Origin: Halomonas sp. 'Soap Lake #6'
Lineage (GTDB): Bacteria; Pseudomonadota; Gammaproteobacteria; Pseudomonadales; Halomonadaceae
Reading direction: 5' to 3'
Assembly (NCBI RefSeq): GCF_003031405.1
Contig: NZ_CP020469.1
Span: 3,534,001 to 3,598,000, forward strand
Length of the DNA: 64,000 bases
Position 1 is the stretch's first letter, and each line of letters begins with the position of its first letter. The position numbers and the translations under genes are program-made. This document shows positions 24,110-47,431 of the stretch, in pieces. Under the pieces are notes generated by a model, which was not told the DNA's origin, made no database searches, and was given only the letters and a program-made list of their open reading frames with translations.

Positions 24110-24139
24110 ATTACCGGACAACTCCTGAGCACAAATACA

Positions 24140-24162
24140 GCCAGCTGGTACAACCAGCTGGC
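24140..24162. repeat. Perfect 10-bp inverted repeat upstream of the 23459-24109 gene
   Basis: GCCAGCTGGT (24140-24149), 3-base spacer, ACCAGCTGGC (24153-24162). It lies 31 bp upstream of the chosen start and within the frame of the longer ORF. No T-run follows on either strand, so an operator or mRNA hairpin is more likely than a terminator. Confidence 0.8.
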
Positions 24163-24341
24163 AATTTGACGGCAATCTCTACACGCCAACCATGCCGACA
24201 CGCACACCATGCCCATCCCCCTATCACGTGTACAGTATCAGAACGCCTTTATAAAAGCGGATCAGATCCAGAGATAGCAGGCCTTCGATAAGGTTCATGG
24301 CGTCAGGAGGTTACTCACCTGGGGTTTCACCACTGTCACCA

Positions 24342-24845
24342 CTACTCTTCACGTGCCAGAGCCACATCAAAAGAGACGTCAATATCCATCGTATCGCTGT
24401 GGTCATGCCCCTCTGACATAGAAGCTACATGGGTAAGCGAGGCCGTAATGTGCCCTTTTGCTCGGCCAGCATCACCGTCAATATCGAGCACTTCTAGCTC
24501 GATTGGCACCTCATCCTCGGTGCCATAGTGGGGCATGATTGAGCTTTCGGGGAAATAAGTCACCATGGCACTGCTGGCTTCACCATCCATCACCATAAAG
24601 CTAATGCTCAACGTACCCTGAGTTGCGAATTCCTGTTCCCGATGGCCTTGGATGGTGACATCCGTCATGCCTGGCATCAGCTCGCTAAAATTAGCGGTTG
24701 AACCATCTTCGTGGGTAATAACATGCCACTGCTTAGACTCTCCATCCAGTGTTCCACTGATTTCATCAGCTAGCGCATGCCCCGCCGCCCACAGCAAACC
24801 GCCCATTAGTAGTGCGCAGCTCATAAACCGTTGTTGATTTATCAT
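24342..24845 (-). CDS. Unrecognised small exported protein
   Basis: A 167-residue product with a clear signal peptide (cleavage after AHALAD, ~residue 27) and an acidic, beta-rich mature part of ~140 residues. No cysteine remains in the mature chain. An acidic His-containing stretch (SEGHDHSDTMD, ~residues 143-153) could bind metal, but that is only a guess. AGGAGAG precedes the ATG. It is the last gene of the exported-protein block, 59 bp after the large VWA gene. Confidence 0.75.
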   Translation of the reverse strand: MINQQRFMSCALLMGGLLWAAGHALADEISGTLDGESKQWHVITHEDGSTANFSELMPGMTDVTIQGHREQEFATQGTLSISFMVMDGEASSAMVTYFPESSIMPHYGTEDEVPIELEVLDIDGDAGRAKGHITASLTHVASMSEGHDHSDTMDIDVSFDVALAREE

Positions 24846-24904
24846 CTACTCTCTCCTGTTTAACCGTATATCTTATTGTGATGCCTTACTGCCATCGCAT
24901 GGTA

Positions 24905-27900
24905 TTAATCTAATCTAAAAGTAATATTTCCACCTGGAGGAATGTGGATGTCGTACTGCTGTTCTTCTCCCGCGAGCTCCAACAGCAGCTTATAATCTCC
25001 CATCGGTATACTGATTGGCTCTTCATTCACACGTCCACTTGCCACCTCTTCACCATCCGTATCCACAAGTAGCCATTTAGCTGCCAGTGCTGCCTTCAGC
25101 CCTTCCGCTAGCTGCTGTTCGTTACGGCTATCGAAATATTCTCCACCGCCTAGCATCGCCAAACGAGCGAGCTCAGCTTGGAGTGCGCCCTCTTCAATAT
25201 GGAAGCCCACTATATTCAGTTTAATGTTAAAACCTTCTTCCAGTAGCACCTCTACCGCCTCTTCAACATTGCCATCACAGGTTTCCTCACCGTCAGTGAG
25301 CATAACGACTAGCCTTGGCTGATCGGCATAGGCAGCCAAGTCATCTGCCACTGCCAGCAGTGAGTCTGCCAGCGGTGTACGTGACAAATTTATCGCCTGT
25401 AGTTGGGTAACTGCTTCGCGGACATCGGCGTGGCTGCCTGAGTCTGCGGCTACCAGCAATTCAGTAGCACAGCTATGGGGTTCGGTATGCCCAAAAGCGC
25501 GCAGCGCGACCGGCAATTGGTCAGGAATATGGGTTTTCAGCACATCGTCGACAATCCGCCGCGCCACTTCGATACGCCGCCCTCCTTCCATTTGCTGCAA
25601 CATGGAGCCCGAGGCATCAAAAATCAGATGTACAGCGCCTGCACCAATCACCGGTGACGGGCCACTCAGCACTTGTAAACGCCCTGGTTCAGGCGGTTCC
25701 TGGTGGTGCTGCCCTACGGCTAAACGGTAGTCAGTGGGATTGCGCAGCTGCCGCATGCTCTGCTCGAAAGCCTGAATCAGGTCGTTACGGCCGGTCGCAT
25801 AGGCGTAGCGGCCATCGCCTACTCGTGACCAGGCATGCATCAGATTCTGATACCAGCGCAGCTCATCCGGATCACGCTGCTCGCCGTGGCCCAGCGACAT
25901 GGTAAATATACGTGGTTTGACCTGGGCCAGCGTCTCCCACGCACTGAGATCGCGACCGACCTGTTCGGCATCGGTGATCAGGAAGATCACTTTCTCCCCA
26001 TCGCGTTGCGCCAAGGCTTGGCTGGCGATACGCAGGGCAGGCTCAGCATCGGAGCCTTGATAACGCATGTCGTAGTGCCCCAGCGCCATGGCCATTGTCG
26101 CTGGGGAGTCAGCCCAGCCATTGATCAGCAATGGGCCACCCAACGACATCAGATTGCTAACCTCACGGCCAGGGCGAAGACCTTCAGCAAAGCGTACCAG
26201 CGCCTGATAGATGGCTGGTTGATGAACACCGATACTGCCACTGCCATCCCAAATAAAGATGATCGAGCGTGGCGGCTCCGTCAGGGTGAGTCGGTAGTCC
26301 CCGGGCACTAAGTCCCCCACCTCGGCTTGGCGGCCACCCGGCTCATCGCGCCATGTCAGTGCCACCTCTTCGCCGTCAGGGTCGGCCAGGGAAGCGCTCA
26401 GCCTGCCCCGCAGCGACTCCGCCAGAAAGAGCGTTAGGGTGTTGTTATCCTCTTTGAGGCGTATCTGATACCCCTCACTTTCCCCAGGCTCTTCGAAGCG
26501 ACCTTCGCCAAGCAGTTCAGCGGCCATACCCGTTGGTTGCGCAAGAGAGCTGTCCTCTGGTTCAGCGGCATCATCCGTCCGGAGCGTCTCGTAAGGGCCC
26601 TGGGTATGATCAAGCCCCCAATAGGCCAGTATCGACTCTCCACTGACCAGATCGCTGGCTTCGATGGCTTGAATGCTTGCTGGAATGCGCCAGCGGGGGC
26701 TGTGCTGCTCTGGGTCGGCATCAGGCTCATCAAACACCAGCTTCAGATAGCGCACCCAAGGCGTATCAGGCAGGGGGAAGCGCGCGATACCCTCTTCGTC
26801 GCGCTCAAGCACCCAGCTGGGCTGCGGTTGCCAGGGGCCGACCGGGCCTTCCGTTGAGGTGTAGACCCGTGCCCGCTCTACCGGGAGGCCTTGCCAATCG
26901 AGATCGTCGACCCAGCGTAGTTCGTTGATACGAGCCGCCCGTTGGTTGAGGAAACCAAATACCATCTGGATAGTGCGACCGTGAATACGCTCACCCTGGC
27001 GCGCATGACTCTCAACCTGCCGCCCTTGGTTGCCCAACGTATGACGTTGGCCTACCAAACCATGTAAAGAACGCAGATCCGGCAAGGTATATAACCAATG
27101 ACCGCCGTGTTCGGTGGCTAGCAGATCATGTTCATGTTGCGCCAGCTGCCCATGGGGTTCACCCAGTGCGCGGAACATCCCCGTGCCGGTAATCGCACCT
27201 TGGCCAGGTGGGTTACCCCATACCGAGAGCGGCGTCAATTGCACGTAGCGAGCGGCGAGGGGTGTTTCCAGTGCAAATACCTGCTCTTTCGCCTGCGCCG
27301 TCAACTCGATCTCCATCAATGGCGACAGATCATCAGGGCTGTCGCCTGCCGCAATGGCCACATGCCGCCAGCGATTGGCAATAGCGTGAAATGAGCGCTG
27401 GTTGAATAGCAACGCATGTAAAGTGCCGCCATCCCCCGCCAAGCGCAATGGCGGTAGCGGGTCTCCCATTTCACGCCAGTGCAGCGCGCTGGCAGAGCTT
27501 AGGCCGTCAATGAGTGCGCGTAGCTCGGTGTTTCGGCCTCGCCAACGCTCTCCCACGTCTTCACCGTTTTCCGGATCCACAAAGGCGGCCCCTAAGCCAG
27601 CCCAGGCCAGATCAGTCAATCCATGTAACGCAGACGCCTCCTCTTGCCACTTGGCAGGTGAGCGCGGCTCGGCTTCCCGAGTGATCGCAATATCCAAACG
27701 TTGATCATGTTCACCGGCACGTACAAATACCACTAGGCTATCGCCCTCAGGGAGATCAGGAGGAACCGTCAACTCAAGGGGTAGCCTTTGGATACTCTGT
27801 GCCGACAGGGTGAGCGACTCAGGTAAGCCGCTTAGGCTTGCCGCACCGTGACTCAAGTGGGCACCTAACGCTATCGTTTGAGGTACATCCAGCGGGTTTT

Positions 27901-30310
27901 CAACGACAAGCTCAGCCGCAAGTTGCTGACCTTCAGGACTAAAAGCAGCAAGCGCCAGATGCTCAGCCTGTATCACCAACCGCAGCGGTACAGGGGGTGA
28001 ACGCTGTGTATCAACAATATCGACAGGGCGCGTATTGGGGCCAAACCTGACCTCCATGACTATCGCCTGATCAGCAGGCAATGCTGCACTGTGTTCGCGT
28101 GAGCGGGCATCGAGGGCCAGTGGTATTACGTTATCCTCTTCATCGCGCAGGGTGATCCAGGTTTCCCCACCGCGAGGCTGTCTGTCTCCCGTTACCACGC
28201 CACCCAACAGCGCTAATTCACGCGCTGCTTCATCGGCAGCTAAGCGTAGGTAGCCGCGCTCTACCACCTCACCTTGAAGGCCAATACTCACACGGGTTTC
28301 CCGTGGTATCCACGGGGCCTGTTCGGGCGTCGGCGCAGGCGTGACACCATCAGTAAGATCCCAGGGGGGAATCAGCTCAAGGCGAGCCTGATAGTGAGTC
28401 TCACTGGCTTGCTGACCACGCAGACGCAGTAACCTATCCCCCGGCGACAGCCAGAAGGACGCCTGCTGCGATTCGCCATTGGCCCGCAGGGTGAGGTATT
28501 CATTTTGATGGCGGGTTTCACCTTCCCACTGCAACCAGGCGTGAGTATCCACTCCTTCAGGAGGATCCAACGTCAGGCGCACCCGGTTCCAGCCAGGAAC
28601 ACGGAACTGGAAATAGTCATCATCGTGAACACGGTGGAAAGTACCGCTGATATCCTGCCCCAACCAGAGCGGATTGGCGTGGCGTGCTAGATTATTCGGC
28701 TCGGCTTCATGGCCAGGTGCAATGCGCTCACTGGGTGTCAGCGCTAGTTGATAAGGCACGTCACTGCCGGTGAGTCGTACTAAATAGCGGCCTGGCAGTA
28801 GCCGCAGGTTATCAATACGCAGCGTCTGTGCATTGACCGACTGCACCATGGCACGATCTTCGCCGGGAAACAGCGCATTAAACGACAACGTATCCAATTC
28901 CAAACGTTCCGGCTGATAGAGTTCCAGACGACTCAGGCGACCATCACTTTGGGCCATTACCTGCCACTGACGACTATCCGCGCCGACATCAATGTAAAAC
29001 CAAGCCTCATCCTCGTTGCCCAACTGCCCGCTCAAGGTTTCATCTGGGGCAATGGGATAGGCCCATGCAGACGAGTAGTTGGGCTGATTGACGTGATGCT
29101 CAGGCAGTGCCTCGCCCTCTTGCAGTAACACCACAATATCAATCGGTTCGCCGCGACGCGGCGGCTCAAACTCGATTCGGTAATCACCCGCTGGTAAAGC
29201 GGCATGTGCAAACAGATGCGAATTGGCTCCGCTTCGGCAGGCGGGATCGTTACGCTGATCATGGTAGAGGCAGAAGGTGAGACGCTCGGTGTCATCACCC
29301 TCAATATTTAGTGACAGCGGCGACGAAGCCTCATCCACTTGCACCGCCAGTCGCTGAGACTCTCCAGGGTCAAGCCGCAGAGAGACCGGCTCGCCTATCG
29401 CTAGCCAGCGCGGCGGCGGAGGGGTGTCCGGTGGCGTGCCATCATGCTCTCGTGGACGCTGCCCATCGTTCTCAAGGCGCAGCTGTATACGACCTAGCGG
29501 TTCCCCATCAAGCTGACGCAGATGCAGCACACTGTGTTGATCCAACGCCAAACGGCCAAGGTTAGCACTAGGTGCCGCCGCTGTTTCATAGAGTGAACCA
29601 TCAGCGCTCTCCAGCGTTAGCGCAACGCTATTACCCAGGTCGGTCGCTGCCAACAGCTGCCAGAAGGAAGGCACCTCGTCGCTATCCAGGGCTAGCGGCA
29701 GCGAGGCCTCGGGACGATCCAGGTGGTAGAGCCACTCCCGGCCAGGTAGTACGGCCTGAGGTTCATCGTCGGCGGTAAGCTGCTGGTGTAGAGTGAGCGG
29801 TGCCTCACGAGACAGTACCAACTGATACCCTCCGCCTCCATTTTCCTCCTGATCAGCCAACCGTATTAAGTAGTCGGCGGAGGGAATCAGCAGACCGCCC
29901 ATCGCCACCTGGGGGCGTTGCGGCGTGGTCGAAAGGGAGAGCAGCGGCGTGTCGCTCTCTTCTGTCAAGTCGGACGGCGCCACACTACCGAAGGTGGCGA
30001 TGCCCGCTTCGGCTTGAGCATGATTGTTTAGCGGAAATGGCTCAACCTCGACGCTAACACTTGCACCGTCATCGGCCAGTAACTCAATCCGCCAGCGGTG
30101 ATCAATATCGTCATCGCTAAGCCTCCAGCGATAAAAATCTTGGTCATCAGCCACCACCTCGCCAATCAGGCGAGACTCGCCACGTATCTCTTGCGCGGTA
30201 TCCGGTGTATCGTTTGGCTCACGCTCCAGTGTCAGCCGAGGAAAGGCCTGCACCGCCTGTCCGCACCACCACAGCAGGGCCAACCCTGCCAAAAGCCTGC
30301 CCGCTACCAT
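24905..30310 (-). CDS. Giant exported protein with PPC-like repeats, discoidin-like domains and two VWA domains
   Basis: An 1801-residue product with a signal peptide (~residues 1-22) and a strong GGAGGAGGG ribosome-binding site. PPC-like segments starting EPNDTP (~30), NQPNYS (~405) and EPNNLA (~540) are followed by mixed beta-sandwich regions. Two discoidin (F5/8C)-like segments lie near ~895-1060 and ~1070-1220, and another PPC-like segment near ~1250. VWA domain 1 (~1345-1520) has the MIDAS motif DGSGS; VWA domain 2 (~1555-1740) has DASGS plus DGEE. A final small beta domain ends FRLD. VWA/MIDAS domains bind partners through a divalent metal. Function is unknown; it is probably the central scaffold of the cluster. 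Confidence 0.85.
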   Translation of the reverse strand: MVAGRLLAGLALLWWCGQAVQAFPRLTLEREPNDTPDTAQEIRGESRLIGEVVADDQDFYRWRLSDDDIDHRWRIELLADDGASVSVEVEPFPLNNHAQAEAGIATFGSVAPSDLTEESDTPLLSLSTTPQRPQVAMGGLLIPSADYLIRLADQEENGGGGYQLVLSREAPLTLHQQLTADDEPQAVLPGREWLYHLDRPEASLPLALDSDEVPSFWQLLAATDLGNSVALTLESADGSLYETAAAPSANLGRLALDQHSVLHLRQLDGEPLGRIQLRLENDGQRPREHDGTPPDTPPPPRWLAIGEPVSLRLDPGESQRLAVQVDEASSPLSLNIEGDDTERLTFCLYHDQRNDPACRSGANSHLFAHAALPAGDYRIEFEPPRRGEPIDIVVLLQEGEALPEHHVNQPNYSSAWAYPIAPDETLSGQLGNEDEAWFYIDVGADSRQWQVMAQSDGRLSRLELYQPERLELDTLSFNALFPGEDRAMVQSVNAQTLRIDNLRLLPGRYLVRLTGSDVPYQLALTPSERIAPGHEAEPNNLARHANPLWLGQDISGTFHRVHDDDYFQFRVPGWNRVRLTLDPPEGVDTHAWLQWEGETRHQNEYLTLRANGESQQASFWLSPGDRLLRLRGQQASETHYQARLELIPPWDLTDGVTPAPTPEQAPWIPRETRVSIGLQGEVVERGYLRLAADEAARELALLGGVVTGDRQPRGGETWITLRDEEDNVIPLALDARSREHSAALPADQAIVMEVRFGPNTRPVDIVDTQRSPPVPLRLVIQAEHLALAAFSPEGQQLAAELVVENPLDVPQTIALGAHLSHGAASLSGLPESLTLSAQSIQRLPLELTVPPDLPEGDSLVVFVRAGEHDQRLDIAITREAEPRSPAKWQEEASALHGLTDLAWAGLGAAFVDPENGEDVGERWRGRNTELRALIDGLSSASALHWREMGDPLPPLRLAGDGGTLHALLFNQRSFHAIANRWRHVAIAAGDSPDDLSPLMEIELTAQAKEQVFALETPLAARYVQLTPLSVWGNPPGQGAITGTGMFRALGEPHGQLAQHEHDLLATEHGGHWLYTLPDLRSLHGLVGQRHTLGNQGRQVESHARQGERIHGRTIQMVFGFLNQRAARINELRWVDDLDWQGLPVERARVYTSTEGPVGPWQPQPSWVLERDEEGIARFPLPDTPWVRYLKLVFDEPDADPEQHSPRWRIPASIQAIEASDLVSGESILAYWGLDHTQGPYETLRTDDAAEPEDSSLAQPTGMAAELLGEGRFEEPGESEGYQIRLKEDNNTLTLFLAESLRGRLSASLADPDGEEVALTWRDEPGGRQAEVGDLVPGDYRLTLTEPPRSIIFIWDGSGSIGVHQPAIYQALVRFAEGLRPGREVSNLMSLGGPLLINGWADSPATMAMALGHYDMRYQGSDAEPALRIASQALAQRDGEKVIFLITDAEQVGRDLSAWETLAQVKPRIFTMSLGHGEQRDPDELRWYQNLMHAWSRVGDGRYAYATGRNDLIQAFEQSMRQLRNPTDYRLAVGQHHQEPPEPGRLQVLSGPSPVIGAGAVHLIFDASGSMLQQMEGGRRIEVARRIVDDVLKTHIPDQLPVALRAFGHTEPHSCATELLVAADSGSHADVREAVTQLQAINLSRTPLADSLLAVADDLAAYADQPRLVVMLTDGEETCDGNVEEAVEVLLEEGFNIKLNIVGFHIEEGALQAELARLAMLGGGEYFDSRNEQQLAEGLKAALAAKWLLVDTDGEEVASGRVNEEPISIPMGDYKLLLELAGEEQQYDIHIPPGGNITFRLD

Positions 30311-30340
30311 TGCATCCCTCCTCCAGGTTAATGCAACGCT

Positions 30341-31324
30341 TTACCAGTCTGGGCGCGGCCAGGGCTCTTGGTCACTAGTGGTAACCAAGAGCGAAGCATC
30401 GCCTGTGCCGAGGGCCACCAGACGCTCCCAGAGCGCACGGGTATGATCATCCATAAGCTGATCGTGATGAATGACAAGATCTAATGCATCGTCTTGCCCC
30501 ACTCCTCTTTCCAGGGAGATCTCAATAAAAGATTCACCCGCCGCAACACTCTCCGGCCATTCGGGTGCGTGCCAAGTGGTTCGCCCCTGCTCATCGCGTT
30601 GACGTTGGCCAAGCTGCTCCAGCCCGGTTTGCAGCAGCGATAGCTCTATCTGTTCGGGCTTAAATAAGAAATCAGTTGGCTCAAGTTCTGGCCAATCGCG
30701 CACCGTGTCATTGAGTGACTCAATGCCACGGCAAGGCAATCCAAGACACTTCTCTGCGGTGTGTTCAGACAGTTCACGCCGGGCTGCGTGTGTTATGTCC
30801 GCCGCCTGCCCCATAATGGGCCGGGTGATTAGCCGCCAGGCAACATCGGGAGCCTGGCCGAAAGAGCTGGCAGACGCTACCTGCTCCTCGCCCAATAGCT
30901 CGACCAGCTCAGCGTGACGTGCTGGCCCAAGATTGTAACGCGACACCTCAACCAGATCCGCGATCAGCGGCGGACGCTCCTCGATAACCACCTGGGCCTT
31001 GGCATAGCGGAAACGGTAACGCACATGGGGCAGCTCAGGTTCTTCATTGAGCACGACCAGCAGCGCCTTACTGAATGGGTCAACATCAGCATCGGTCAGA
31101 AAAACACTGTCACTGTGACCGTCACCAGCTAGGGTTTCTCTCAGCCGATCCTGCAGCGCCGTCACTTCTTGATGCTGCCAAGCAGCCTCTGGCATAAAGA
31201 CCTCAGCCATTTCATCCAGCGAGGTGGCCGCACTCAAGCGCTGATCGGCCACCCTATCGGCAGCAGCACTGTTCACCCCGAGGGCGATACTGCTTATCCC
31301 AACCAGCAGGCTCAGACTGCGCAT
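30341..31324 (-). CDS. Unrecognised exported protein of the VWA cluster
   Basis: A 327-residue product with a signal peptide (~residues 1-23, cleavage near SAAADR). The mature part is acidic and mixed alpha/beta, with only two cysteines (KCLGLPC, ~residues 193-198) that may pair. No known motif. The start is set by GAGGAGAG seven bases before ATG 31324; the longer frame adds nine residues without support. It lies 30 bp before the giant VWA gene and 33 bp after its upstream neighbour, consistent with one operon. Confidence 0.75.
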   Translation of the reverse strand: MRSLSLLVGISSIALGVNSAAADRVADQRLSAATSLDEMAEVFMPEAAWQHQEVTALQDRLRETLAGDGHSDSVFLTDADVDPFSKALLVVLNEEPELPHVRYRFRYAKAQVVIEERPPLIADLVEVSRYNLGPARHAELVELLGEEQVASASSFGQAPDVAWRLITRPIMGQAADITHAARRELSEHTAEKCLGLPCRGIESLNDTVRDWPELEPTDFLFKPEQIELSLLQTGLEQLGQRQRDEQGRTTWHAPEWPESVAAGESFIEISLERGVGQDDALDLVIHHDQLMDDHTRALWERLVALGTGDASLLVTTSDQEPWPRPDW

Positions 31325-31357
31325 GTTGCTCTCCTCACTTGCGCTCGACATTCACGC

Positions 31358-32020
31358 TTAGCGAGCGCTCTGCTCGCGAACGGCAGCCAAATCCCAGTTG
31401 CGCATCAAGTCAACGGCGACATCCTGCGAGTCAAGGTTCTCACCTTTCACCTGCATCATAATGCGGCCATCAAGCAGCAGCGTCACTTCAGCACGTGAGC
31501 GTTCAGGCTCCCACTTGACTACCGCCGCTTCACGGCCCAGGCGAATGCGCTCCATATCAGGTTGTGCGGCAATCATGGCGGGATTGCTGAACAGTGCCCC
31601 CATGCCTTGAATCAGCGGGCTATCCAGCATCATGCTGGCCGTCAACTGCCCATTACCATCATCCTGGTGATAGACACGCTCAAGGGAAGTACCGCCAGCG
31701 CCAAACATGGCGGCTGCACTACCGCCACCTGCACTGCTCGAACTTGCTTCCTGAGCCGTCCAACCATCAGGTGCCTCAGGGAAGGTCTGGGCAATTAGCC
31801 CCGACATCATCTTGCGCATATCTTCAATGGCGAACTCCAGTTCGGTAATCGCCGCGCCGTACTCTTGCTCCTGATAAAGCTCAAGCCCCAGCTCAATCTG
31901 TTCGACCACGTCATCGGCCAGAACACTTTGTGCGACTGGCAACATAAGGGCACCCGCGAGGGCGAACGCCTTAAAGTGACCTGTGGAGAAGCGGATACAA
32001 GGCGTATAGTGCGATATCAT
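31358..32020 (-). CDS. Unrecognised exported protein with helical N-terminus
   Basis: A 220-residue product with a signal peptide (~residues 1-35, ending SVLADD). A helical segment resembling one TPR-type hairpin (ELGLELYQEQEYGAAITELE, ~residues 43-62) is followed by a Ser/Gly/Ala-rich linker (~93-110) and a beta-rich C-terminal part. No catalytic motif. GAGGAC precedes ATG 32020. Spacing to neighbours is 42 and 33 bp within the minus-strand block. Confidence 0.75.
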   Translation of the reverse strand: MISHYTPCIRFSTGHFKAFALAGALMLPVAQSVLADDVVEQIELGLELYQEQEYGAAITELEFAIEDMRKMMSGLIAQTFPEAPDGWTAQEASSSSAGGGSAAAMFGAGGTSLERVYHQDDGNGQLTASMMLDSPLIQGMGALFSNPAMIAAQPDMERIRLGREAAVVKWEPERSRAEVTLLLDGRIMMQVKGENLDSQDVAVDLMRNWDLAAVREQSAR

Positions 32021-32062
32021 AATGACGTCCTCTTGCTTTTAATTATGCTCATTTTTAACTCA

Positions 32063-33070
32063 CTAGTTGGCGCTGCCATCCACGCTCTGGTCACCGGCAA
32101 GGGGCGCTGCCGCCTCCGGTTGCTGAGCTTTTTCGCCAGCCACTTTGTGCTTTAACTCACGGAATTTTTTCGAAATGCCATCCAGTTTCGCTTCCCACTC
32201 AGGGTCAGGGGTTTGCCCTTCAATCGTTTTGAAATAGACCTGCATCATGCAGGTGACGGCCAGTGGTTCAAACACCGCCACTTTAACGCTCCAGGCAAAC
32301 AGCAGCGCAACCAACAGCCCGGTTGCTGACCAGCCCCCTGGGATCAAATAGGCCACTAACGCGGCTGGCGCCAGCATCACCAGGAAGACGACAAACGACA
32401 GTAGATAGATAATCAGCGTCAACCAAGCGGCATTTTTCATCATCGGCTTGAGGTTCTGACCATAAAGCACCAGTGCATCCCGTGAGCTTTGCCAAGGGGT
32501 GTTTGAGCGCGTCTTAATGCAGTAAGCCAGAATCACTTCATCAATAAAGCCAACGGCAATACGTAAAAACGCCTGCACAATGCGTAAAAACTGCTGTGCC
32601 CCAGGAATAGGCAGAAGTCTAAAGACTGTTCGTACTATCCCCACCAGAGACCTGAGCACCCCCTTGATCAACTGATCCACCACAAACAAGGCGCTGGCTT
32701 GGCCAAAACGCTCCTTGACCACCTGGCTGGCGTGTTGAATCTGGCCTCGGTTTTCAGGCAATACCTGCCCATCCATTAACTCCACCAGCACGGCGATATG
32801 GCCTGCCTTGACCACGTACAAAAGATACTCACGCAGTACATACATGACGGCACCGACAATCCCGAAACCGATCGCACCGCCCCAGAAGGTGGAGGCCGCG
32901 CGGAAGCCTTCATCGCCGAAGCCTCCAATCCCCCAGCCAACGCCAGCACCTACGCCCGTCATTAGCACATACGCCAGCGCAATGCCGAAATACACCGCTA
33001 GGCGAAATACAATAAAAGGCAGGGTTTTAAACATCAGGCCTATGGCCTGCCCGAGCCGAAAATCCCACAT
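32063..33070 (-). CDS. Polytopic membrane protein of the VWA cluster
   Basis: A 335-residue product with about six hydrophobic segments, including ~residues 15-45 (Gly-rich, GVGAGVGWGIGG), ~63-90, ~205-235 and ~240-265, and a charged Gln/Ala-rich C-terminal tail. The pattern resembles the choline-transporter-like/glycerophosphoryl-transporter membrane fold, but similarity is too weak to name it. It is the only clearly polytopic protein of the cluster, so it could be the inner-membrane anchor or export platform; this is inference. Confidence 0.75.
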   Translation of the reverse strand: MWDFRLGQAIGLMFKTLPFIVFRLAVYFGIALAYVLMTGVGAGVGWGIGGFGDEGFRAASTFWGGAIGFGIVGAVMYVLREYLLYVVKAGHIAVLVELMDGQVLPENRGQIQHASQVVKERFGQASALFVVDQLIKGVLRSLVGIVRTVFRLLPIPGAQQFLRIVQAFLRIAVGFIDEVILAYCIKTRSNTPWQSSRDALVLYGQNLKPMMKNAAWLTLIIYLLSFVVFLVMLAPAALVAYLIPGGWSATGLLVALLFAWSVKVAVFEPLAVTCMMQVYFKTIEGQTPDPEWEAKLDGISKKFRELKHKVAGEKAQQPEAAAPLAGDQSVDGSAN

Positions 33071-33104
33071 ATCGATTTACCCCCAAACCGCCGGATGAAT
33101 TTAA

Positions 33105-34148
33105 TTACTCGTTAAGCGCCAGCCCTTCGAGGCGTCCGTCGAGCGAGACGCTATCTTCGCCGCCGGCTTCAAAACGAATATCCGCATCAAAGACACCGTT
33201 GCGCTGCGCCAGCGTCAGTGTTCCATCAACACTATCGACCTCATAACGTGGCAGCATCACCCTGAGCACCCCCTCCTCGGAGCGATCTGACAATGGATAC
33301 TCCCCTGCCGAGATACCGCTTGGTAACATCAATGAAATCCGATTCCCTATCGATAGGATGGCGCCGCTGTTGGAGGTATTGATAGTAATGCGCCCCAAAT
33401 GAGTGTCGGTCTCGCCGTTGACCGTTAACTCATAACGCGCTTCTGGTTGGACAGTGAACGCAAGGTTATTAACAGCGCCCTCTACAGCTACTTGCGCAGC
33501 GTCCTCGCGGTTGCCATCCGCTGCGTCGAAACGCCATGCTGCGGTGACACTATCGCCAAGCTCGACTAAATACAGTTCGCCCTCAATCTGGCGGGCAAAT
33601 GTCCATGCGTGCCCATCGCCGCGCAAATGGGCCTGAACCTGATGCTCATTAGCCGCTGAAAAGCTGGAGATCGCATAGCGCTCTCCCGCCGTCGCACCCT
33701 CGGGTAACACAAGACTTATCCAGGCCCGAACCACATTATCGGGCTCGTCCTCATGCGTCGCATCGGTGTAAATAGTCAGCGCATAAGGGCCATCGGCGTT
33801 GCTACCGGCACGAGCTGAGCCACCGCCGCTTCCGGGGCGAAACACATCGACACTCACGCCGCCATAGCGGGGGGCGTCAGCCGTGGTATATTCACCGGTT
33901 GATGACACTGCACCTGATATGTTCAAGACCGATTCTCCCTGGCTGAGGTCATTCAACCATGCCTGCATCTCATCATCTGGTGCGGCACTCCCTTGCTGGC
34001 TCTGCGTTTCAGCACTGCTATCCGTTGTCTGGCCGCTGGTACTCCCGGCGCTCTCAGCACCATCACCACACCCCGCTACCATCGATCCTGCTGCAATCAT
34101 CGCGGCGATCAGTGCCCCTGAAGTGTGCTTTGACATCGTCATCCTCAT
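33105..34148 (-). CDS. Unrecognised lipoprotein of the VWA cluster
   Basis: A 347-residue product with a lipoprotein signal: two to three Met/Lys/Arg residues, a hydrophobic core, and the lipobox VAGC (Cys ~27). A Ser/Thr/Gln/Glu-rich linker of ~40 residues follows, then a beta-rich domain (~residues 70-345) with no cysteines. No family recognised. Three closely spaced ATG codons (34148, 34142, 34136) are possible starts; all keep the lipobox. The residue after Cys is Gly, so outer-membrane sorting is expected. Confidence 0.75.
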   Translation of the reverse strand: MRMTMSKHTSGALIAAMIAAGSMVAGCGDGAESAGSTSGQTTDSSAETQSQQGSAAPDDEMQAWLNDLSQGESVLNISGAVSSTGEYTTADAPRYGGVSVDVFRPGSGGGSARAGSNADGPYALTIYTDATHEDEPDNVVRAWISLVLPEGATAGERYAISSFSAANEHQVQAHLRGDGHAWTFARQIEGELYLVELGDSVTAAWRFDAADGNREDAAQVAVEGAVNNLAFTVQPEARYELTVNGETDTHLGRITINTSNSGAILSIGNRISLMLPSGISAGEYPLSDRSEEGVLRVMLPRYEVDSVDGTLTLAQRNGVFDADIRFEAGGEDSVSLDGRLEGLALNE

Positions 34149-34238
34149 CTTTTGATTCCATCCAGGGTGTAAATGGGCGAGTGGGTGGCTGCAGCATTTT
34201 CTGGCGAGCCCTTTTCGTTGATCCAACCTCGCTACAAA

Positions 34239-35552
34239 CTACTGCGGCGTGAATCTCAGCTCGTAGCGAACGTCCAGCTCCCGGCCTTCATCGTTGGTAA
34301 AGACATTGATAGCGGTGTAATCGTCAAAGAAGGTGCCGCTAACAAAGACCCACTGGTTGGGACTGGGGTGAAGAATGGGGTCGGCATCCACTTCATCGAA
34401 AAAGTGCTCGCCGTATAGCATGATCAGCAAATCTCGGAAGTCGCCTGCCGAGCTTTCGTCCAGCACAAAGTCCGGTGAGATCAGCTCATTCACGATGGTC
34501 AGCGGCATGTTTGTACTGGGGCGAATCATCCGCACCAAGCGATCCCCCTGATGATAAAAGACCTGATTTCTATCCTGATCCAGTAACTCACGACGGGATT
34601 GATCGGCAAATGCCTGATAATCGTAGCGATAAATATCGTACTGGATCATGTCGCTGGTTTGAGACAGCATCAGAGGCTCAGCAGCAAAATCGATGCCGTC
34701 CAGAAACAATGCCTTGACCTCTTCCATGGTCTCTTTATCCATCACCGCCGCTGCAGGTTCAGCAACATCCACCGACTCATCTCCCCCCCAGTTGATGATG
34801 TTCATCCGAGTGTCGTATTCCAGCGCTAGCAGATCCAACTCAATACGCACATCACCACTGACACCTTCGCCACCCGGTACCGGTGCAAGCTGGCCGCTGA
34901 CTTCCAGATACCCCGATAACTCCTGGCCGCCAGCTTGTTTGAAGGTCACACTGCCCTGCTCGGTGATGACTTCCGCCAAAGGGTGAAATTCACCTTCAAC
35001 ACGCTCTCCCATGACCGCCATCAGCATGAAGGTGTCACCATCAATCGTATCTGTCTCTGGCCCAACGACATCGGCCGCCCCTTCAAGCAGTTGGGTACTT
35101 TCGTGAGGCACCAACGCCAAACACAAGTAGCGCAGGCCATCAACCTCCCCCCTCAGCAGCAGCTCACTGGCCACCACCAGCCCACGGGCGTCACTGTGGT
35201 TGTAATACCCCTGCCCCATGAGATCGCCACTGCCTGGCCCCTCCCAGCGCCCAGATACCGTTGGAGCCATGTCCGGGTCACCGCTATCCAAAGCAGCCTG
35301 CAAACCGGTGAGAATGTCATCGTCAGACATGCTATCCGGCGGCACTAAGCATAGGGTTGGGTCGATCATCTCGAACAAAAAATCCGCTGGCATGCGCGGA
35401 TCCATATCATCAACATCAGCCGCCACAGCAGTGCTGAAAAAGCCTAAGACGCCGACCGCACCAACGTTCAGAAAGCACTTTACTGACAATGAGTTAGTAG
35501 CAAAAAAAATGCAGCCTTGCTGCCGTTCACGGTAGAAACGCGATAAGAACAT
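34239..35552 (-). CDS. Unrecognised exported protein of the VWA cluster
   Basis: A 437-residue product. The hydrophobic stretch CFLNVGAVGVLGFFSTAVAAD (~residues 26-46) after a long basic N-region acts as a signal peptide. The mature part is acidic and beta-rich, with WEGPGSGDLMGQG (~residues 105-117) recalling secreted lipid- or substrate-binding beta-barrels, and a C-terminal mixed domain. Function unknown. A very strong GGGGGGAGG precedes ATG 35552. A 187-bp gap upstream with a repeated GCATGTTTT word suggests its own promoter. Confidence 0.75.
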   Translation of the reverse strand: MFLSRFYRERQQGCIFFATNSLSVKCFLNVGAVGVLGFFSTAVAADVDDMDPRMPADFLFEMIDPTLCLVPPDSMSDDDILTGLQAALDSGDPDMAPTVSGRWEGPGSGDLMGQGYYNHSDARGLVVASELLLRGEVDGLRYLCLALVPHESTQLLEGAADVVGPETDTIDGDTFMLMAVMGERVEGEFHPLAEVITEQGSVTFKQAGGQELSGYLEVSGQLAPVPGGEGVSGDVRIELDLLALEYDTRMNIINWGGDESVDVAEPAAAVMDKETMEEVKALFLDGIDFAAEPLMLSQTSDMIQYDIYRYDYQAFADQSRRELLDQDRNQVFYHQGDRLVRMIRPSTNMPLTIVNELISPDFVLDESSAGDFRDLLIMLYGEHFFDEVDADPILHPSPNQWVFVSGTFFDDYTAINVFTNDEGRELDVRYELRFTPQ

Positions 35553-35739
35553 GACCTCCCCCCACTGAAAGTGCCCCACAAAACGAGTGCAAAACATGCT
35601 TGTTATCTAACGTTAAAACATGCCCACCAGTGGTGCCCCGTTTAAACGAACAGGCCATCGTACATTTTTTGATTATTTGTCAGTCCACGCTGCCAGAGCC
35701 GACCCGGGCGTATAGCGACGTTGACATCTGGCCGCTGCA

Positions 35740-37179
35740 TTATGGTGTCAATGCGAGCCGGAACACCTCGTTCACCGAGACACCGCCATACTCAAACTCG
35801 AGCTCGTCAGCCGTTGCCCTTAGGCGATAGAGCAACATAAAGCGTCGTGGCTCATCGTCGGCAGGAAGCCAAAAGGGTTCCACGAGCTCGATGGGGCCAC
35901 GCTGATAAGCCGCCACTAGCTCACCCAGAGGTGCTCGTAGCCGGAATCGGTCAGCTACCTCCATCATCCCGCCGGTGCCGCTAAGATTGGTCATCTCGGC
36001 CTCAACCAGTACCAGGGCCTCCCCCTCCCCAGCCTGGTGACCGGCGAAGGTGTCCCTGACGCCAAGGGCATGGATGGTGACCGGCGTGGGTTGGTCTTCT
36101 ATCAGCGCCAACGGCTCAATAGCTGCCTTGGGTAACTCCCCTTCGCGAAGTGTGAAGCGCATCGGCGGGCGAATGACTGAACTGATACCGGAGGCACGAA
36201 ACTCGGGGAAATAGGCCACCAATTCAATGTGCTCGGCATCATCAGGCACCGCATAGACAGCCATGCCGCCAGCCCAGGCATCAGGTAGCCAGGCTGGGTT
36301 ACCGGGCAGCGAACTAAGCTCGCTGTCGCGCACATAGCCATGGGTCGTATCAACCACCGCCTGTAACAGCCCCTGCCCCTCCACATACTCCATGACGCGC
36401 GGCAGCGCGACCTCAGCAGCAGGGTCTGCATCGCGGTCAAGTGCCAGAGCATCCGCCGTGGTGCGCCATAGCCCTCTGCCTCGCAGGTCAACGGCGAGCC
36501 AAGCCATACCCGGCGGGGCAGCACGGCCTTGCCAGTTTTTATGCAACTCAACGCTGTGTACGCCGATCTCCATGAGCTCGTTGGCCTCGACCAGCTGCGC
36601 AGCCTCTCTGCCGACATCTGGCGGCCGCTTATTGCCAACCAACAGAGGAATCACCAATGGCGCATACTCATCATGGTAGTAGCGCAGCGACAGCGACTCG
36701 ATACCGGACTCTGGCACGGCATAGACCAGACTGCCGCTGAGCATAGCGCCGACCCGACCAAGCACGAAGCTGTCGGTAATGGCGTCACTGTCGCCCTCCA
36801 GTTCAGCGCGGCGATAGACACGCTCACCATTAACCAACAAATAGCCCTGGCGCTTGAGTGACCCAATCAGCACCGCCTCCTGATAGTCGAGGTCGAATAT
36901 CAGGTCGGTGGGCATAATGCTTTCCACCTCCAGTGACAGCACTAACCAGCGATGCCCAGGTGGCGGTTTCTCTCCATCATGCGCGTCACGCAACTCCCAT
37001 TGAGTCACTCTCATGTGCAATGCGCGATTGCACCCTTCGGCGGCCAGCGCCCCTCCTCGATCCGTCACCAGCGCTTGGGGGTCTGTTATTTCACGTGGCA
37101 CATCGGCCTGCCCTGCGCCAGCCAGTAACATCAGCCCTACCGTGCATGACACCACGGTATGCTTCATCGACGTCTTCAT
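35740..37179 (-). CDS. Exported protein with three DUF4352-like beta-sandwich repeats
   Basis: A 479-residue product with a signal peptide (~residues 1-25, cleavage after GQA). I read three degenerate repeats of ~140 residues. Each begins near a PPGxxWLxLxLE-type strand (GHRWLVLSLEVES ~75; GMAWLAVDLRGRG ~225; GEALVLVEAEMTN ~390) and ends near a VYAVP or WLPADD element followed by alternating strands. This resembles DUF4352 extracellular Ig-like domains. No catalytic residues. GAGGAG precedes ATG 37179, only 10 bp after the previous stop, so it is co-transcribed with the transglutaminase-like gene. Confidence 0.7.
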   Translation of the reverse strand: MKTSMKHTVVSCTVGLMLLAGAGQADVPREITDPQALVTDRGGALAAEGCNRALHMRVTQWELRDAHDGEKPPPGHRWLVLSLEVESIMPTDLIFDLDYQEAVLIGSLKRQGYLLVNGERVYRRAELEGDSDAITDSFVLGRVGAMLSGSLVYAVPESGIESLSLRYYHDEYAPLVIPLLVGNKRPPDVGREAAQLVEANELMEIGVHSVELHKNWQGRAAPPGMAWLAVDLRGRGLWRTTADALALDRDADPAAEVALPRVMEYVEGQGLLQAVVDTTHGYVRDSELSSLPGNPAWLPDAWAGGMAVYAVPDDAEHIELVAYFPEFRASGISSVIRPPMRFTLREGELPKAAIEPLALIEDQPTPVTIHALGVRDTFAGHQAGEGEALVLVEAEMTNLSGTGGMMEVADRFRLRAPLGELVAAYQRGPIELVEPFWLPADDEPRRFMLLYRLRATADELEFEYGGVSVNEVFRLALTP

Positions 37180-37189
37180 GGCATGCTCC

Positions 37190-39625
37190 TCAGCAAGGAT
37201 CCGGCAGAGCATCGACCACCGCACCGTTGACCTCTGAAAAGACGCTACCCAAGGCTGCCAGATAGATCTTCGAATCAATCGCCCAGCTGGCTATCTCCAG
37301 CCACTGGTCACTCAGCTTACCCAAGGCTTTGCCCCCAGCGGCTTTGGCACCCTCGCGCAGGATGCAACACTGCATAGCCCCCGCGCTGGGCTTAGTGAGA
37401 ATGCAACTCCAGACTGATTGCACCATGGCTACCGCCGACGCCGCGTTATCAATGCTGTTCATCAACGTCAGTACCTGTTCCGTCATCTGCCCCCGCCCCT
37501 GAGGCCCCATGCCCAGGGTATCCCCGGTGACAGGATCAATTCGCCACCAGGTCACAACGTTGGAAGGCTCCGTCGCCATGACCAGCCACTGCTGTTGATC
37601 CAGCGCCTTGCGTAGATGGGAGACCGTGTCCGCCTCGATACCCTCCAGCGCCTCACTAGATGTCACCAATTTCCAGTCGGCGTTTTGAGAGAGGGCATCG
37701 GCCAGCGCCAGGCTGGCATTCACAACGCTGGCTTTAGCGCTATCTTGACGACGGTTCTGGCCACCGCGTAGCAGCTCTGCCTCCAGTACCGTGTCCAGTA
37801 CTCCTTGCGTCAAGCGAGCGTGACGCGGGTCGCTGCTACCCGGCAGAATCTCGACTCGGTTATCGATGATGTCGAAACCATACTCAAACAGTTGCCCCTC
37901 TTCGCCCAGCGAGAGGTGCTCAAAGGTCGATAGCAGATTGAGGCGAGTCAAGGCGATATAATCCCGGTGTGGACTACGAGCATGGCGATGATGGGCCAGC
38001 GCCATCAGATCAACGGGGTCAGGCTCGAAGCGCTCAAGCGCCTGCCCCATGAGGCTCGCCTCGTCACGACGCAGGGCGTGAACCGCGCCCAGGCTCACCA
38101 TACGATTGTTGAGCGCGCCCTGTAGCAACTGGCCTAGGGTATACGCTGTTGGCCACCAATGACTCTGCGCCAGCAGCTCGGTGGACGAAAGCATGCTGAG
38201 CGCTCGCGCCTCTAGCATGGCCTCGCTAAGTGCCAACCCCTCGACGCTTTCCGCCCGGCGCTCGCCGCCCAACACATCCATCAATGGTCGCTCAAAGGTG
38301 TCTGTCTCACGGCCGGGGGCTGATACGCTAAGGCGCAGGAAGGTGGCCGTCAGTTCTGCTGGCGCAGCTGCCTCTTCTTCACTGCGACGCCCGCCTATGC
38401 CAATCTGCCCAAGGGCCGTCGCCGCTTCGACGTAGGCATCAGAAATCACGGTGCCGCTTTCGGGGTCACCCAGACTGCCATCGTGGCGAATAGTGTGCTC
38501 AATTACCGGCTCCCCATCGACCAGAAGTAGTGGCAACCACTCCTCACTGCTGCTTAGCAGCGCTGGCAACTGCTCGGGGCTGAAGCTGCTATCACCACCA
38601 AGTAGCGCCGCCGCTGGCGGTAGGCCCATAGGTTGCAGATCCAACATCAATGAGCGCCCCACCAGTGCAGCGGCAGTCGCTTCATGATCGAGAGCGATGC
38701 GTTCCTCCAGTTTGCCCTGCTCAAGTCGCTCTGCCACCACTTCAAACCGCAAGCGGTGCCACTGCTCATCAGGTATGGCTTCCGGCCACAGGGCCTCGGC
38801 CTCACCGCCGTGTACTCGCTCACCCGCTTGATGGTGCCGAGAGGCGAGGTCGAGATCCTGCCAGCCACTAGGGCTTTGCCATTGAACCCACCAATGGTCG
38901 GCCATCGCATGCAACCACTCTCTTAGCTCCCTTTCCTGGCGCTCCTCCCGGCCAGAGGCCTGGCCGAGCTTTTCGGCCAGGTAAACCGCCTGGGTTTGGC
39001 TACGCTCAGTGACCCGAGTTGCCATCCCCTCAGCCTGCTGATCCGACATATCGATTTGTTGACGGACAGTCTCTTCATCCACACCCAGTCGCCGGGCCAC
39101 ACGGGCATAGTCGTTACTAGAATAGCCACGCGCTGCGCTTGCCAAGGCCGGTGTCCCCGCACCACCCGCCGCTGCGGAGGATCGCCAGTCATCCAGTAGC
39201 GCCTCACTAGTCGCCTCGTCCAGAGTGGCTCTAGCCAGGCGAACGCGATAGCCTGCCGCTTCAAGCAGTTCCGCCAGTAGCAGAGCGCGATCAAGGTGGC
39301 TGCCATACCCATCTATCAGCACCCCACGGGCACCACGTAAAGCCCCTTGGTAAGGTAGCCAGCGGGTCTCCTCACGCACCCAGTCAAATAGCGCCTCAAC
39401 ATCATTACCGAGGAGCGCCTTCTGCGTGGCAACGGCGTAGTGCTCCATGGGCAGCTCGGCTAACGCCTCCTCGGCCAACCGATAAGCGCGCTGAAGCTGC
39501 TGTTCCGCCACCTGATAGCGGTCGGCCGGAATACGACACTGGGAGCCTGCCCATGCTGTTTCACCGAGAATCAGAGCTAGTGCCAAGGATACAGGTTGGG
39601 CGATAGCCATTAACCGTTTTGTCAT
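37190..39625 (-). CDS. Exported transglutaminase-like protein lacking the catalytic cysteine
   Basis: An 811-residue product with a signal peptide (~residues 1-26). Residues ~75-140 and ~235-265 resemble the split halves of a transglutaminase-like fold. The helix LDRALLLAELLEAAGY is clear, but the position where Cys should precede it reads GYGSH. The later HWWVQWQSPSGWQDLDL could supply the His/Asp half. A long helical region follows, and cysteines occur only near the ends (QCRIP; SCILT, QCCIL, DPC). Inferred to be a non-catalytic or altered enzyme. First gene of the minus-strand block; start by GGAG spacing. Confidence 0.7.
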   Translation of the reverse strand: MTKRLMAIAQPVSLALALILGETAWAGSQCRIPADRYQVAEQQLQRAYRLAEEALAELPMEHYAVATQKALLGNDVEALFDWVREETRWLPYQGALRGARGVLIDGYGSHLDRALLLAELLEAAGYRVRLARATLDEATSEALLDDWRSSAAAGGAGTPALASAARGYSSNDYARVARRLGVDEETVRQQIDMSDQQAEGMATRVTERSQTQAVYLAEKLGQASGREERQERELREWLHAMADHWWVQWQSPSGWQDLDLASRHHQAGERVHGGEAEALWPEAIPDEQWHRLRFEVVAERLEQGKLEERIALDHEATAAALVGRSLMLDLQPMGLPPAAALLGGDSSFSPEQLPALLSSSEEWLPLLLVDGEPVIEHTIRHDGSLGDPESGTVISDAYVEAATALGQIGIGGRRSEEEAAAPAELTATFLRLSVSAPGRETDTFERPLMDVLGGERRAESVEGLALSEAMLEARALSMLSSTELLAQSHWWPTAYTLGQLLQGALNNRMVSLGAVHALRRDEASLMGQALERFEPDPVDLMALAHHRHARSPHRDYIALTRLNLLSTFEHLSLGEEGQLFEYGFDIIDNRVEILPGSSDPRHARLTQGVLDTVLEAELLRGGQNRRQDSAKASVVNASLALADALSQNADWKLVTSSEALEGIEADTVSHLRKALDQQQWLVMATEPSNVVTWWRIDPVTGDTLGMGPQGRGQMTEQVLTLMNSIDNAASAVAMVQSVWSCILTKPSAGAMQCCILREGAKAAGGKALGKLSDQWLEIASWAIDSKIYLAALGSVFSEVNGAVVDALPDPC

Positions 39626-39879
39626 GGGGATGGCTCCAACCAACAGCGCTCAAAGTTTATGTGAGCACTTGCCAGGCTGTTCGCCAAATACACTATTGAT
39701 GAAGTTACCCACATAATATTGGCTAGTCCGTCACATTTTTTATTAACGCTAGCACTCTCCTTAGCTACCAGCCCCCTTCGTTTGAACAGGGCAGAGGCAT
39801 TAACGCCGTATGCTCAAGTGAAACACTTTGCTAAAGTAATCAAACTATGTTTAGCCAAAACCACGGTGGGATAACAACT

Positions 39880-40392
39880 ATGTTAAAAACCCTACTTCTA
39901 CCTGGCACCTTAGCAGCTGCCTTGCTTAATACACCGCTGGCTGCGGACGAAGGCATGCTTTCGGCTCCTGCTGAGCCTGTGATCCTGACCATTGAGGGAA
40001 ATATCCGCCAAACCAATGTTGGCGACACTGCGCAGTTTGATACAGCAATGCTGGAGACTCTGGAAACACATACGCTGGCCACTGAAACCTCCGTGACGGA
40101 TGGCGTTAACCATTTTGAAGGCTTTCTGATACGTGACTTGCTGGAGTGGGTAGACGCTGACGGTGAACAGGTAGTGGCCACTGCATTGAATGACTACATC
40201 GTTGAAATCCCGCTGGATGACTTCTATCAATACGATGTATTGGTGGCTACCCATATGGATGGCGAAGCGCTCACCCCTCGCGATAAGGGGCCTCTATGGA
40301 TCGTTTATCCCCGCAACGACCACACAGAGCTGCAAGATATTCGTTATGACTATCGTTGGGTCTGGCAACTCAGTGGGCTGACCGTGGAATGA
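39880..40392 (+). CDS. Exported molybdopterin-oxidoreductase-fold protein without cysteine
   Basis: A 170-residue product with a signal peptide (~residues 1-22, ending PLAADE). The mature part matches the small Oxidored_molyb fold (PVILTIEGNI, FEGFLIRDLLEWV, PRDKGPLWIVYPRN) but has no cysteine to ligate molybdenum, so catalysis is unlikely. It overlaps the sensor kinase start by ATGA, suggesting that it acts as a periplasmic partner of that kinase. The start at 39880 has GGTGGGA upstream; the longer frame from 39847 is unsupported. Divergent from the VWA block across 254 bp holding both promoters. Confidence 0.8.
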   Translation: MLKTLLLPGTLAAALLNTPLAADEGMLSAPAEPVILTIEGNIRQTNVGDTAQFDTAMLETLETHTLATETSVTDGVNHFEGFLIRDLLEWVDADGEQVVATALNDYIVEIPLDDFYQYDVLVATHMDGEALTPRDKGPLWIVYPRNDHTELQDIRYDYRWVWQLSGLTVE

Positions 40393-42190: not shown

Positions 42191-43261
42191 ATGACGAACG
42201 AACGCTCTCCCCTGGTGCTGTGCGCTGAAGATCATGAAGAGCTGCGCCGCGATTTATGCGACGAACTGCGCGAAGCTGGCTACCGAGTTGTTGAGGCCAG
42301 CGATGGTGAAGAGGCGCTAGCACACTTGCGGGCAGCCCCTGACGTGATTCTCTGCGATATCACCATGCCGCGCCTAAACGGTTACGCCCTGCTGGAGCGG
42401 GTGCGCAATGAATTCCCGGAGCTGGCCGATACGCCCTTCATCTTCCTTACCGCACTTTCGGATCGCTTCGACGTTATTGAGGGAAAGCGCCTGGGTGCTG
42501 ATGACTACTTGGTAAAACCGATTGATTACGACCTGCTACTGGTAACGCTGGAAGCACGCCTGCGCCAGGTAAGCCGCATGCGTGCTAAAAGCACACAGGA
42601 AATCGACCATCTACGTCAAGGTATCCATCACCTACGTTGTGAGATCAGTGATCACGCCTTTGCCGCGGCGAAGAGTGCACTAGATCTCATGGCCGCCGGG
42701 GTGGTATTGCTTAATGACCATGGGCAACCGCTATTGACCAACCGCGCTGCCCTAAAGCTAAACCTTGGCAAACCGCCGTTAAGCGGTATTCCTAGTCTGG
42801 AAGGCATCAGCGGCACATCTAGCCAACAGTTACATCAGGCGGTGCGAAAAAACTTAGTCGCTAATCGCCTTAGCGCTGAAAACACTGAATGCCTGCGTCT
42901 TTCCCGCTGGGATGGGCACGGGTGCAGCGATCTGATGCTGTTTATCTGCTCACTTGCCAATGGCGTGACAAACGCTGATAGCCCAGCGGTGGCCGTTATG
43001 CTGATCGACCCCAAGCAGCGCGTTCAGTTACCGGAAGCACTGCTTGCCGAGCTGTTCGGCTTTACTCCGACCGAAGCGACTATCGCTATGCTCCTGGCCG
43101 AGGGACAACGCAAGGAAGATATTGCCGAGCTGTTGGGCGTTTCTGCGACCACGGTGGCATTTCATCTGCGTAACCTGTTTCAAAAAACTGACACCCGGCG
43201 TCAGGCAGAACTGATCGCAGTGATTCTGGCTGGCTCAATGAGCCTATCTATTCAGAGTTAA
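42191..43261 (+). CDS. Response regulator with receiver and LuxR-type DNA-binding domains
   Basis: A 356-residue protein. The receiver (~residues 6-125) has phospho-acceptor D56 (ILCDITMPRLNG) and Lys in YLVKPID. A middle ~150-residue region resembles the PAS-like domain often found in helix-turn-helix regulators, and a LuxR-type HTH occupies ~285-345 (FTPTEATIAMLL, VSATTVAFHLRNLF). AAGGAG precedes the ATG. It pairs with the upstream kinase. Targets are unknown; autoregulation of the cassette at 39626-39879 is a reasonable guess. Confidence 0.9.
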   Translation: MTNERSPLVLCAEDHEELRRDLCDELREAGYRVVEASDGEEALAHLRAAPDVILCDITMPRLNGYALLERVRNEFPELADTPFIFLTALSDRFDVIEGKRLGADDYLVKPIDYDLLLVTLEARLRQVSRMRAKSTQEIDHLRQGIHHLRCEISDHAFAAAKSALDLMAAGVVLLNDHGQPLLTNRAALKLNLGKPPLSGIPSLEGISGTSSQQLHQAVRKNLVANRLSAENTECLRLSRWDGHGCSDLMLFICSLANGVTNADSPAVAVMLIDPKQRVQLPEALLAELFGFTPTEATIAMLLAEGQRKEDIAELLGVSATTVAFHLRNLFQKTDTRRQAELIAVILAGSMSLSIQS

Positions 43262-47370: not shown

Positions 47371-47431
47371 AGCGCACCTCTGTTAGCGGCAGATGATTAC
47401 GGCCGGAACAGCAGCGTTCCGGCCTGTTAGC

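Follow-up and report, generated by a model that had tools for sequence, protein, structure and literature searches.

A Rare Linked Gene Pair Encoding a Cysteine-Less Transglutaminase Fold and a Giant Double-VWA Protein in an Exported Nine-Gene Block of Halomonas sp. 'Soap Lake #6'

The nine-gene block and the linkage of A and H

A block of nine consecutive minus-strand open reading frames (ORFs), lettered A to I in transcription order, was found at positions 24342 to 39625 of a 64-kb window (the whole stretch of DNA analyzed here; locus G000:C1:3534001-3598000) in the 4.8-Mb, single-contig genome of Halomonas sp. 'Soap Lake #6'. An ORF check of the window confirmed the genes, order, coordinates, and spacing given in the original prediction, which had been made from the sequence alone; the intergenic gaps are, from A to I, 10, 187, 90, 34, 42, 33, 30, and 59 bp. 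By eye, seven of the products (A, B, C, F, G, H, and I) carry signal peptides, D is a lipoprotein, and E is a polytopic membrane protein, in agreement with that prediction, whose reading of the block as a cell envelope system also stands. Relatives were found within the genus for all nine genes. Compared with Vreelandella zhaodongensis (genome G102), the rate of nonsynonymous substitution (dN) was below that of synonymous substitution (dS) in each of the nine, with a dN/dS of about 0.06 to 0.21 for C to I; for A and B, in which dS is saturated, the ratios are about 0.44 and 0.52, respectively.

That the nine genes form one system was not upheld by comparison of gene neighborhoods: conservation failed beyond close relatives, and in the genus sample (82 genomes, the window's included) A is present in 3, E in 8, and G in 6 genomes. 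A smaller unit, the pair of A and H, was instead found across families and in two classes (Alpha- and Gammaproteobacteria), and it is this pair, not the set of nine genes, that is worth study. Outside the window, six H genes spanning the protein from its PPC-like part to its second VWA domain (VWA2) were found in five places, namely four genomes (G102 with two H genes, G018, G406, and G401) and a replicon of the alphaproteobacterium Indioceanicola profundi (L126), and in all five an A-family gene directly adjoins an H. In V. zhaodongensis the second H (L035, 10639-16182, not in the window; 46% identity to the window's H) is followed by A with a 4-bp overlap, and in G018 H is followed by A with a 16-bp gap if the GTG at 9695 is taken as the start of A. 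A precedes H in G406 (9-bp gap), G401 (23-bp overlap), and the Indioceanicola replicon (4-bp overlap). Since both orders occur, the link has outlived rearrangement.

In a 369-genome class sample, full-length A and PPC-to-VWA2 H were found together in three genomes, one of them that of the window, and neither was found in any other, in surveys that scored at most two candidates per genome and could thus miss an A or an H. If the two genes were independent, the chance of this co-occurrence would be 1.2e-7, a figure calculated post hoc. Matches of about 60 to 120 residues to the transglutaminase (TG) part alone were not counted as A, nor were H matches confined to VWA2 counted as H; G401 was counted as having A despite a 92-residue match, because the gene aligns over its length. 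The A-H family is rare, H being found in a phylum sample in the window's own genome only (1 of 398 at 1e-60). H matched 67 plasmid records; among the 15 listed, only that of Indioceanicola extends past VWA2, and none covers 80%. A single-sequence search of PLSDB with A gave no match at 1e-5, yet the Indioceanicola A was found by profile, so the single-sequence search was too insensitive.

Domains in H were assigned by comparing a profile of six H proteins with solved structures (Table 1). The predicted PPC-like segment was borne out, as was one of the predicted discoidin-like segments, while a second was not clearly supported by the profile search. The profile matches CBM32/F5-8C domains (best E value, 2.6e-5) and VWA domains of solved proteins, BatB being a weak match among the latter (E value, 0.0017). 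Both of the metal ion-dependent adhesion site (MIDAS) motifs noted originally, DGSGS and DASGS, are present in the one chain. In VWA1, D1355, S1357, S1359, and D1447 are invariant in all six H proteins, with a Ser at the presumed Thr position of the MIDAS; in VWA2, the MIDAS D, S, S, T, and D and two Cys residues are likewise invariant in all six. Generic VWA models of NCBIfam were matched by at most two of the six. The N terminus of H is, by eye, a Sec-type signal. RTX repeats, the di-Ala cleavage motif, and LPxTG-like motifs were sought in the window's H by pattern search, and none was found.

The predicted TG-like fold was recovered in A, where Pfam matches a TG core at an E value of 0.0033, below the family cut-off, and structure comparison of a predicted model (mean predicted local distance difference test [pLDDT] score of 52.2, unreliable outside the TG core) gives the same fold. 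At the position that we take to be that of the catalytic Cys, placed by the TG motif, the six A proteins have His, His, Ser, Ser, Ala, and Ala, and none has Cys. The TG core as a whole is Cys-free in five of them, that of G406 having one Cys elsewhere in the core. Among the 19 loci given for class-sample relatives of A, Cys is absent in all 11 matches that cover the site, one of which is the A of G401 itself, and a G-[N/G/S]-x-x-D site occurs in 11 of 14 longer pieces. Because no Cys is found at the expected catalytic site, catalysis by A appears unlikely; of the earlier suggestion that the fold acts on or binds peptides, binding is the better half. No RHS or toxin domain was matched in A by Pfam. 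Within the genus A diverges fast (25 to 34% identity), and A and B are about 33% identical to their G102 counterparts over the aligned part, unlike the other seven block genes.

Table 1. Features of the block and the adjoining trio (window coordinates; protein lengths of A to I from ATG starts; aa, amino acids)
Feature	Position	Strand	Description and evidence
A	37190..39625	-	Exported, 811 aa; N-terminal transglutaminase-fold core, no Cys at site
TG core of A, first half	~39215-39412	-	Pfam and structure
B	35740..37179	-	Exported, 479 aa; internal repeats of ~116 residues
C	34239..35552	-	Exported, 437 aa; 67-72% identical genes in G018, G102
D	33105..34148	-	Lipoprotein, 347 aa; lipobox VAGC by eye; 65-71% in G018, G102
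E	32063..33070	-	Polytopic membrane protein, 335 aa; transmembrane character by eye
F	31358..32020	-	Exported, 220 aa; 83-88% in G102, G089, G078, G082
G	30341..31324	-	Exported, 327 aa; in 6/82 genus genomes
H	24905..30310	-	Exported, 1801 aa; PPC-like, discoidin-like, VWA1, VWA2
PPC-like pair in H, ~residues 401-644	28379..29110	-	Collagenase collagen-binding domains, E 3.1e-17
Discoidin/F5-8C-like in H, ~residues 927-1034	27209..27532	-	Putative chitobiase domain 2kd7, E 2.6e-5
VWA1 in H (DGSGS)	25721..26269	-	Invariant MIDAS residues; approximate boundaries by eye
VWA2 in H (DASGS), residues 1561-1735	25106..25630	-	Pfam VWA, 6.5e-11
I	24342..24845	-	Exported, 167 aa; 70-83% in G102, G089, G078, G082
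'moly'	39847..40392	+	Small exported protein; Oxidored_molyb domain, Pfam 1.5e-8; no Cys
Sensor histidine kinase	40356..42164	+	Pfam; linkage
LuxR-type response regulator	42191..43261	+	356 aa; Pfam; linkage

Variation of the block and the divergent trio

The block is nearly whole in two other genomes of the genus and shorter in four. The gene order is second H, A, B, C, D, E, F, G, H, and I in V. zhaodongensis and H, A, B, C, D, G, a 253-aa exported ORF, and E, followed by the contig end, in G018. G089 holds E, F, G, and I; in G078 and G082, which lack E, genes F, G, and I adjoin the trio described below; and G034 has E along with a partial F. In G095, G096, and G009, E occurs with a small exported VWA protein, and in G009 the trio is flanked by the VWA gene and E. 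These small VWA proteins (L050 in G096, L051/L052 in G095, and L053 in G009) have repeated C-terminal domains and are 667 and 682 aa long where complete, the G096 copy being cut by a contig end. Wherever E, F, G, and I occur, they stand in the same relative order, except in G018, where G comes before E. As a set of nine, the genes represent a local elaboration, and the full block is not widely conserved.

Upstream of the block and divergent from it lies a trio of genes for a small exported protein (here called 'moly'), a sensor histidine kinase, and a response regulator; the extent originally given for the block takes in the nine genes and omits this accompanying trio. 'moly' was found at each of the nine further loci with block genes that were retrieved from the genus, and the trio lies at the E locus in all seven other E-bearing genomes of the genus, three of which have the small VWA gene. 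No Cys was found in the matched part of 'moly' at eight of the nine other loci, while G009 has one, and 'moly' looks like a pseudo-enzyme sensor partner. Relatives of 'moly' occur in 80 of the 82 genus genomes; at the three further loci whose surroundings were examined (in G035, G087, and G010), these relatives adjoin hybrid-type kinases, and block genes were not found there. Since such relatives occur at loci without block genes, the 'moly' family is not block-specific. The linkage suggests that the trio probably regulates the block.

Family libraries name little in the nine proteins. Pfam names domains in two, H (VWA) and A (the TG core, below cut-off); NCBIfam gave weak matches only (D, 0.032; A, 0.088), and PADLOC a single weak match (E, 0.027). 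A defense system reading of the block was dropped, the PADLOC match being weak, as was a phage origin, there being no PHROG match at an E value of 0.001 for the nine proteins. DUF4352-like repeats had been predicted; B does contain a 116-residue internal repeat (self-profile E value, 5e-5; probability, 68%), but DUF4352 is not matched in B by Pfam at an E value of 0.1. Relatives of B have 44% identity in G018 and 32% in G102. A weak relative of F (28%) adjoins A-H in G401, and G251 has a distant relative of G (29%) close to a gene for a small VWA protein. This genome, of another family, encodes in a row on one strand (L088, 6356-10353) the small VWA protein, a DUF2799 lipoprotein, and the G relative, which carries an extra N-terminal part.

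Of the nine proteins, E shows the highest conservation when the window is compared with G102 (92%). Nothing significant was found for E among PDB sequences, and Pfam gave scattered weak matches. Its predicted model (pLDDT, 69.7) gives tentative fold matches to the SLC44 (CTL1, PNS1) and CysZ membrane proteins, in lists from which the absence of a family does not exclude that family. The choline transporter profile (PF04515, Choline_transpo) misses E, with no match in eight E sequences; its match in the host genome lies elsewhere only and is below cut-off (14.6 bits). The class sample holds one further weak relative of E, in G238, with no VWA gene seen nearby.

Beside the block, at 23459-24175 of the window, is a membrane protein gene with a weak, below-cut-off PspB match. 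Ordinary genes for a formyltetrahydrofolate deformylase and for sarcosine oxidase gamma and alpha occupy 46504-51119.

A putative envelope complex and its alternatives

The reading that we favor, and hold tentatively, is that A and H associate as subunits of a single Sec-exported envelope complex that is probably controlled by the trio and was expanded into a larger operon. H would be the scaffold, its PPC and discoidin-like domains binding polymer or glycan and its two VWA domains, with MIDAS residues intact, binding protein in a divalent-metal-dependent manner, whereas the Cys-less TG fold of A would serve as a nonenzymatic module holding peptide or protein. In the Vreelandella lineage, the pair would have been incorporated into a more extensive envelope operon centered on E as the inner membrane partner, with lipoprotein D and the exported B, C, F, G, and I as accessories and the divergent trio probably controlling the operon. 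The complex would most likely act in the periplasmic space or on the inner surface of the outer membrane, in assembly or in holding a ligand. Whereas the gene order, the adjacency of A and H elsewhere, the domain content, the lack of Cys at the expected site, the MIDAS residues, and the linkage to the trio are observed, the complex, its location, ligands, and regulation, and the evolutionary order are inferred. A periplasmic location is probably more likely than a surface one because H and A have Sec-type signals and no outer membrane export signal was recognized, and because the host genome has no match over cut-off to the type II secretin GspD and H has no RTX repeat. The two secretins of the host genome are PilQ and one (L133, 994-2454; 486 aa) that falls below every NCBIfam secretin cut-off shown. 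A stronger version, which we regard as doubtful, would make A and H an undescribed two-component envelope machine in which a dead TG holds peptides for a double-MIDAS scaffold, the Vreelandella form having a transporter-like E and being controlled by a second apparent pseudo-enzyme, the Cys-less molybdopterin-fold 'moly', through the histidine kinase.

Several points weigh against a complex of A and H. In the window the two genes are seven genes apart, and in V. zhaodongensis the orthologue of the window's H, as in the window, occupies the distal part of the operon, away from A, so that five of the six outside H genes adjoin A. Proteins of G103 (L083, 6920-10333; 1,137 aa) and G261 (L082, 6067-9450; 1,127 aa) match the discoidin-VWA-VWA part of H and lack the PPC part, and in these genomes A was found neither nearby nor genome-wide at the threshold used; with both counted as H, the linkage is seen in five of seven places, and the chance becomes 1.2e-6. 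The identities within the genus, 25 to 34% for A and 32 to 44% for B, are loose for a tight complex. The putative binding of metal and peptide is read from motifs and fold. Moreover, the absence of type II secretion is read from one family model, and the second secretin, of unassigned type, exists.

The great variation in block content among the genus genomes could also mean that exported proteins have accumulated locally next to a two-component system, with A-H the only unit and the others doing unrelated jobs; a profile comparison of A, B, C, D, F, G, and I, in which no pair exceeded 30% probability of kinship, fits this as well. Such an accumulation nevertheless seems unlikely, as the variants share the same trio, E, F, G, and I retain their relative order in every genome that has them apart from G018, and the gaps in the window are operon-like. 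A further alternative takes E for a small-molecule carrier, CysZ- or choline-transporter-like, for which the exported proteins sense or capture the substrate in osmolyte or lipid headgroup uptake. The fold matches of E suggest this, but helical bundles reach such Z scores without kinship, the E model has a low pLDDT, and the choline transporter profile misses E; to our knowledge, no double-VWA protein acts as a capture protein, and we consider the carrier improbable.

The pairing of a TG-fold protein with a giant protein recalls the Lap system, which consists of the adhesin LapA, the TG-like protease LapG with a Cys-His-Asp catalytic triad, and the receptor LapD; the adhesin has a di-Ala cleavage site and an RTX/type I secretion system (T1SS) C terminus, and LapD and T1SS genes lie nearby. 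H could accordingly be a surface adhesin displayed outside the cell, with A as a LapG-type periplasmic partner and with release or retention under two-component control. This is quite unlikely, given that none of the six A proteins has Cys at the site, that H has a Sec-type signal (by eye) and, by pattern search, neither RTX repeat nor di-Ala motif, and that no T1SS or LapD domain was found among the genes scanned beside H.

Comparison with known systems

The domain types of the A-H pair are known ones; we did not find their combination described. Neither the gene set nor the A-H combination was found in the open-licence literature searched, mostly by titles and abstract openings, which leaves uncontradicted the original remark that the gene set was not recognized as any described system. 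The pair offers a testable, rare two-gene module of an apparently inactive TG and a giant double-VWA protein, with linkage seen in two classes, and it gives a functional hypothesis for an exported Halomonadaceae block left unnamed in family libraries.

Among known systems, the closest analogue is the Lap system, which also pairs an exported TG-fold protein with a giant multidomain protein; A differs in having no catalytic Cys and H in having a Sec-type signal and neither RTX repeat nor di-Ala motif, and LapD was not found in the genes scanned. In the proteobacterial dedicated sortase system, an exported VWA protein adjoins a two-component system. The window shares this arrangement, but its regulator gives a generic match only to that system's model, and there is no sortase domain in the genes scanned and no LPxTG-like motif in H. 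E is tentatively like SLC44 and CysZ in its predicted fold and unlike them in sequence profile.

As in the MoxR-vWA/Bat systems (PMC8195603, PMC7159879), a VWA protein is here encoded in a putative operon; some of the VWA proteins or operons of those systems also have TG-like domains, and the weak BatB match of the H profile is a further likeness; unlike those systems, the nine genes and the ten flanking genes scanned contain no AAA+ ATPase, and H is exported. Inactive TG domains of polymorphic (RHS) proteins have lost one or more of Cys, His, and Asp, sit directly after a signal peptide or transmembrane helix and before RHS repeats, and have been suggested to anchor proteins by binding peptides (PMC3482391). 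Like these domains, the TG fold of A lies near the N terminus after a signal peptide and has lost a catalytic residue. Unlike them, A has no RHS match or toxin domain and is a separate gene adjoining a giant VWA gene, and it would thereby extend the idea of a Cys-less TG as a binding module to a separate partner protein.
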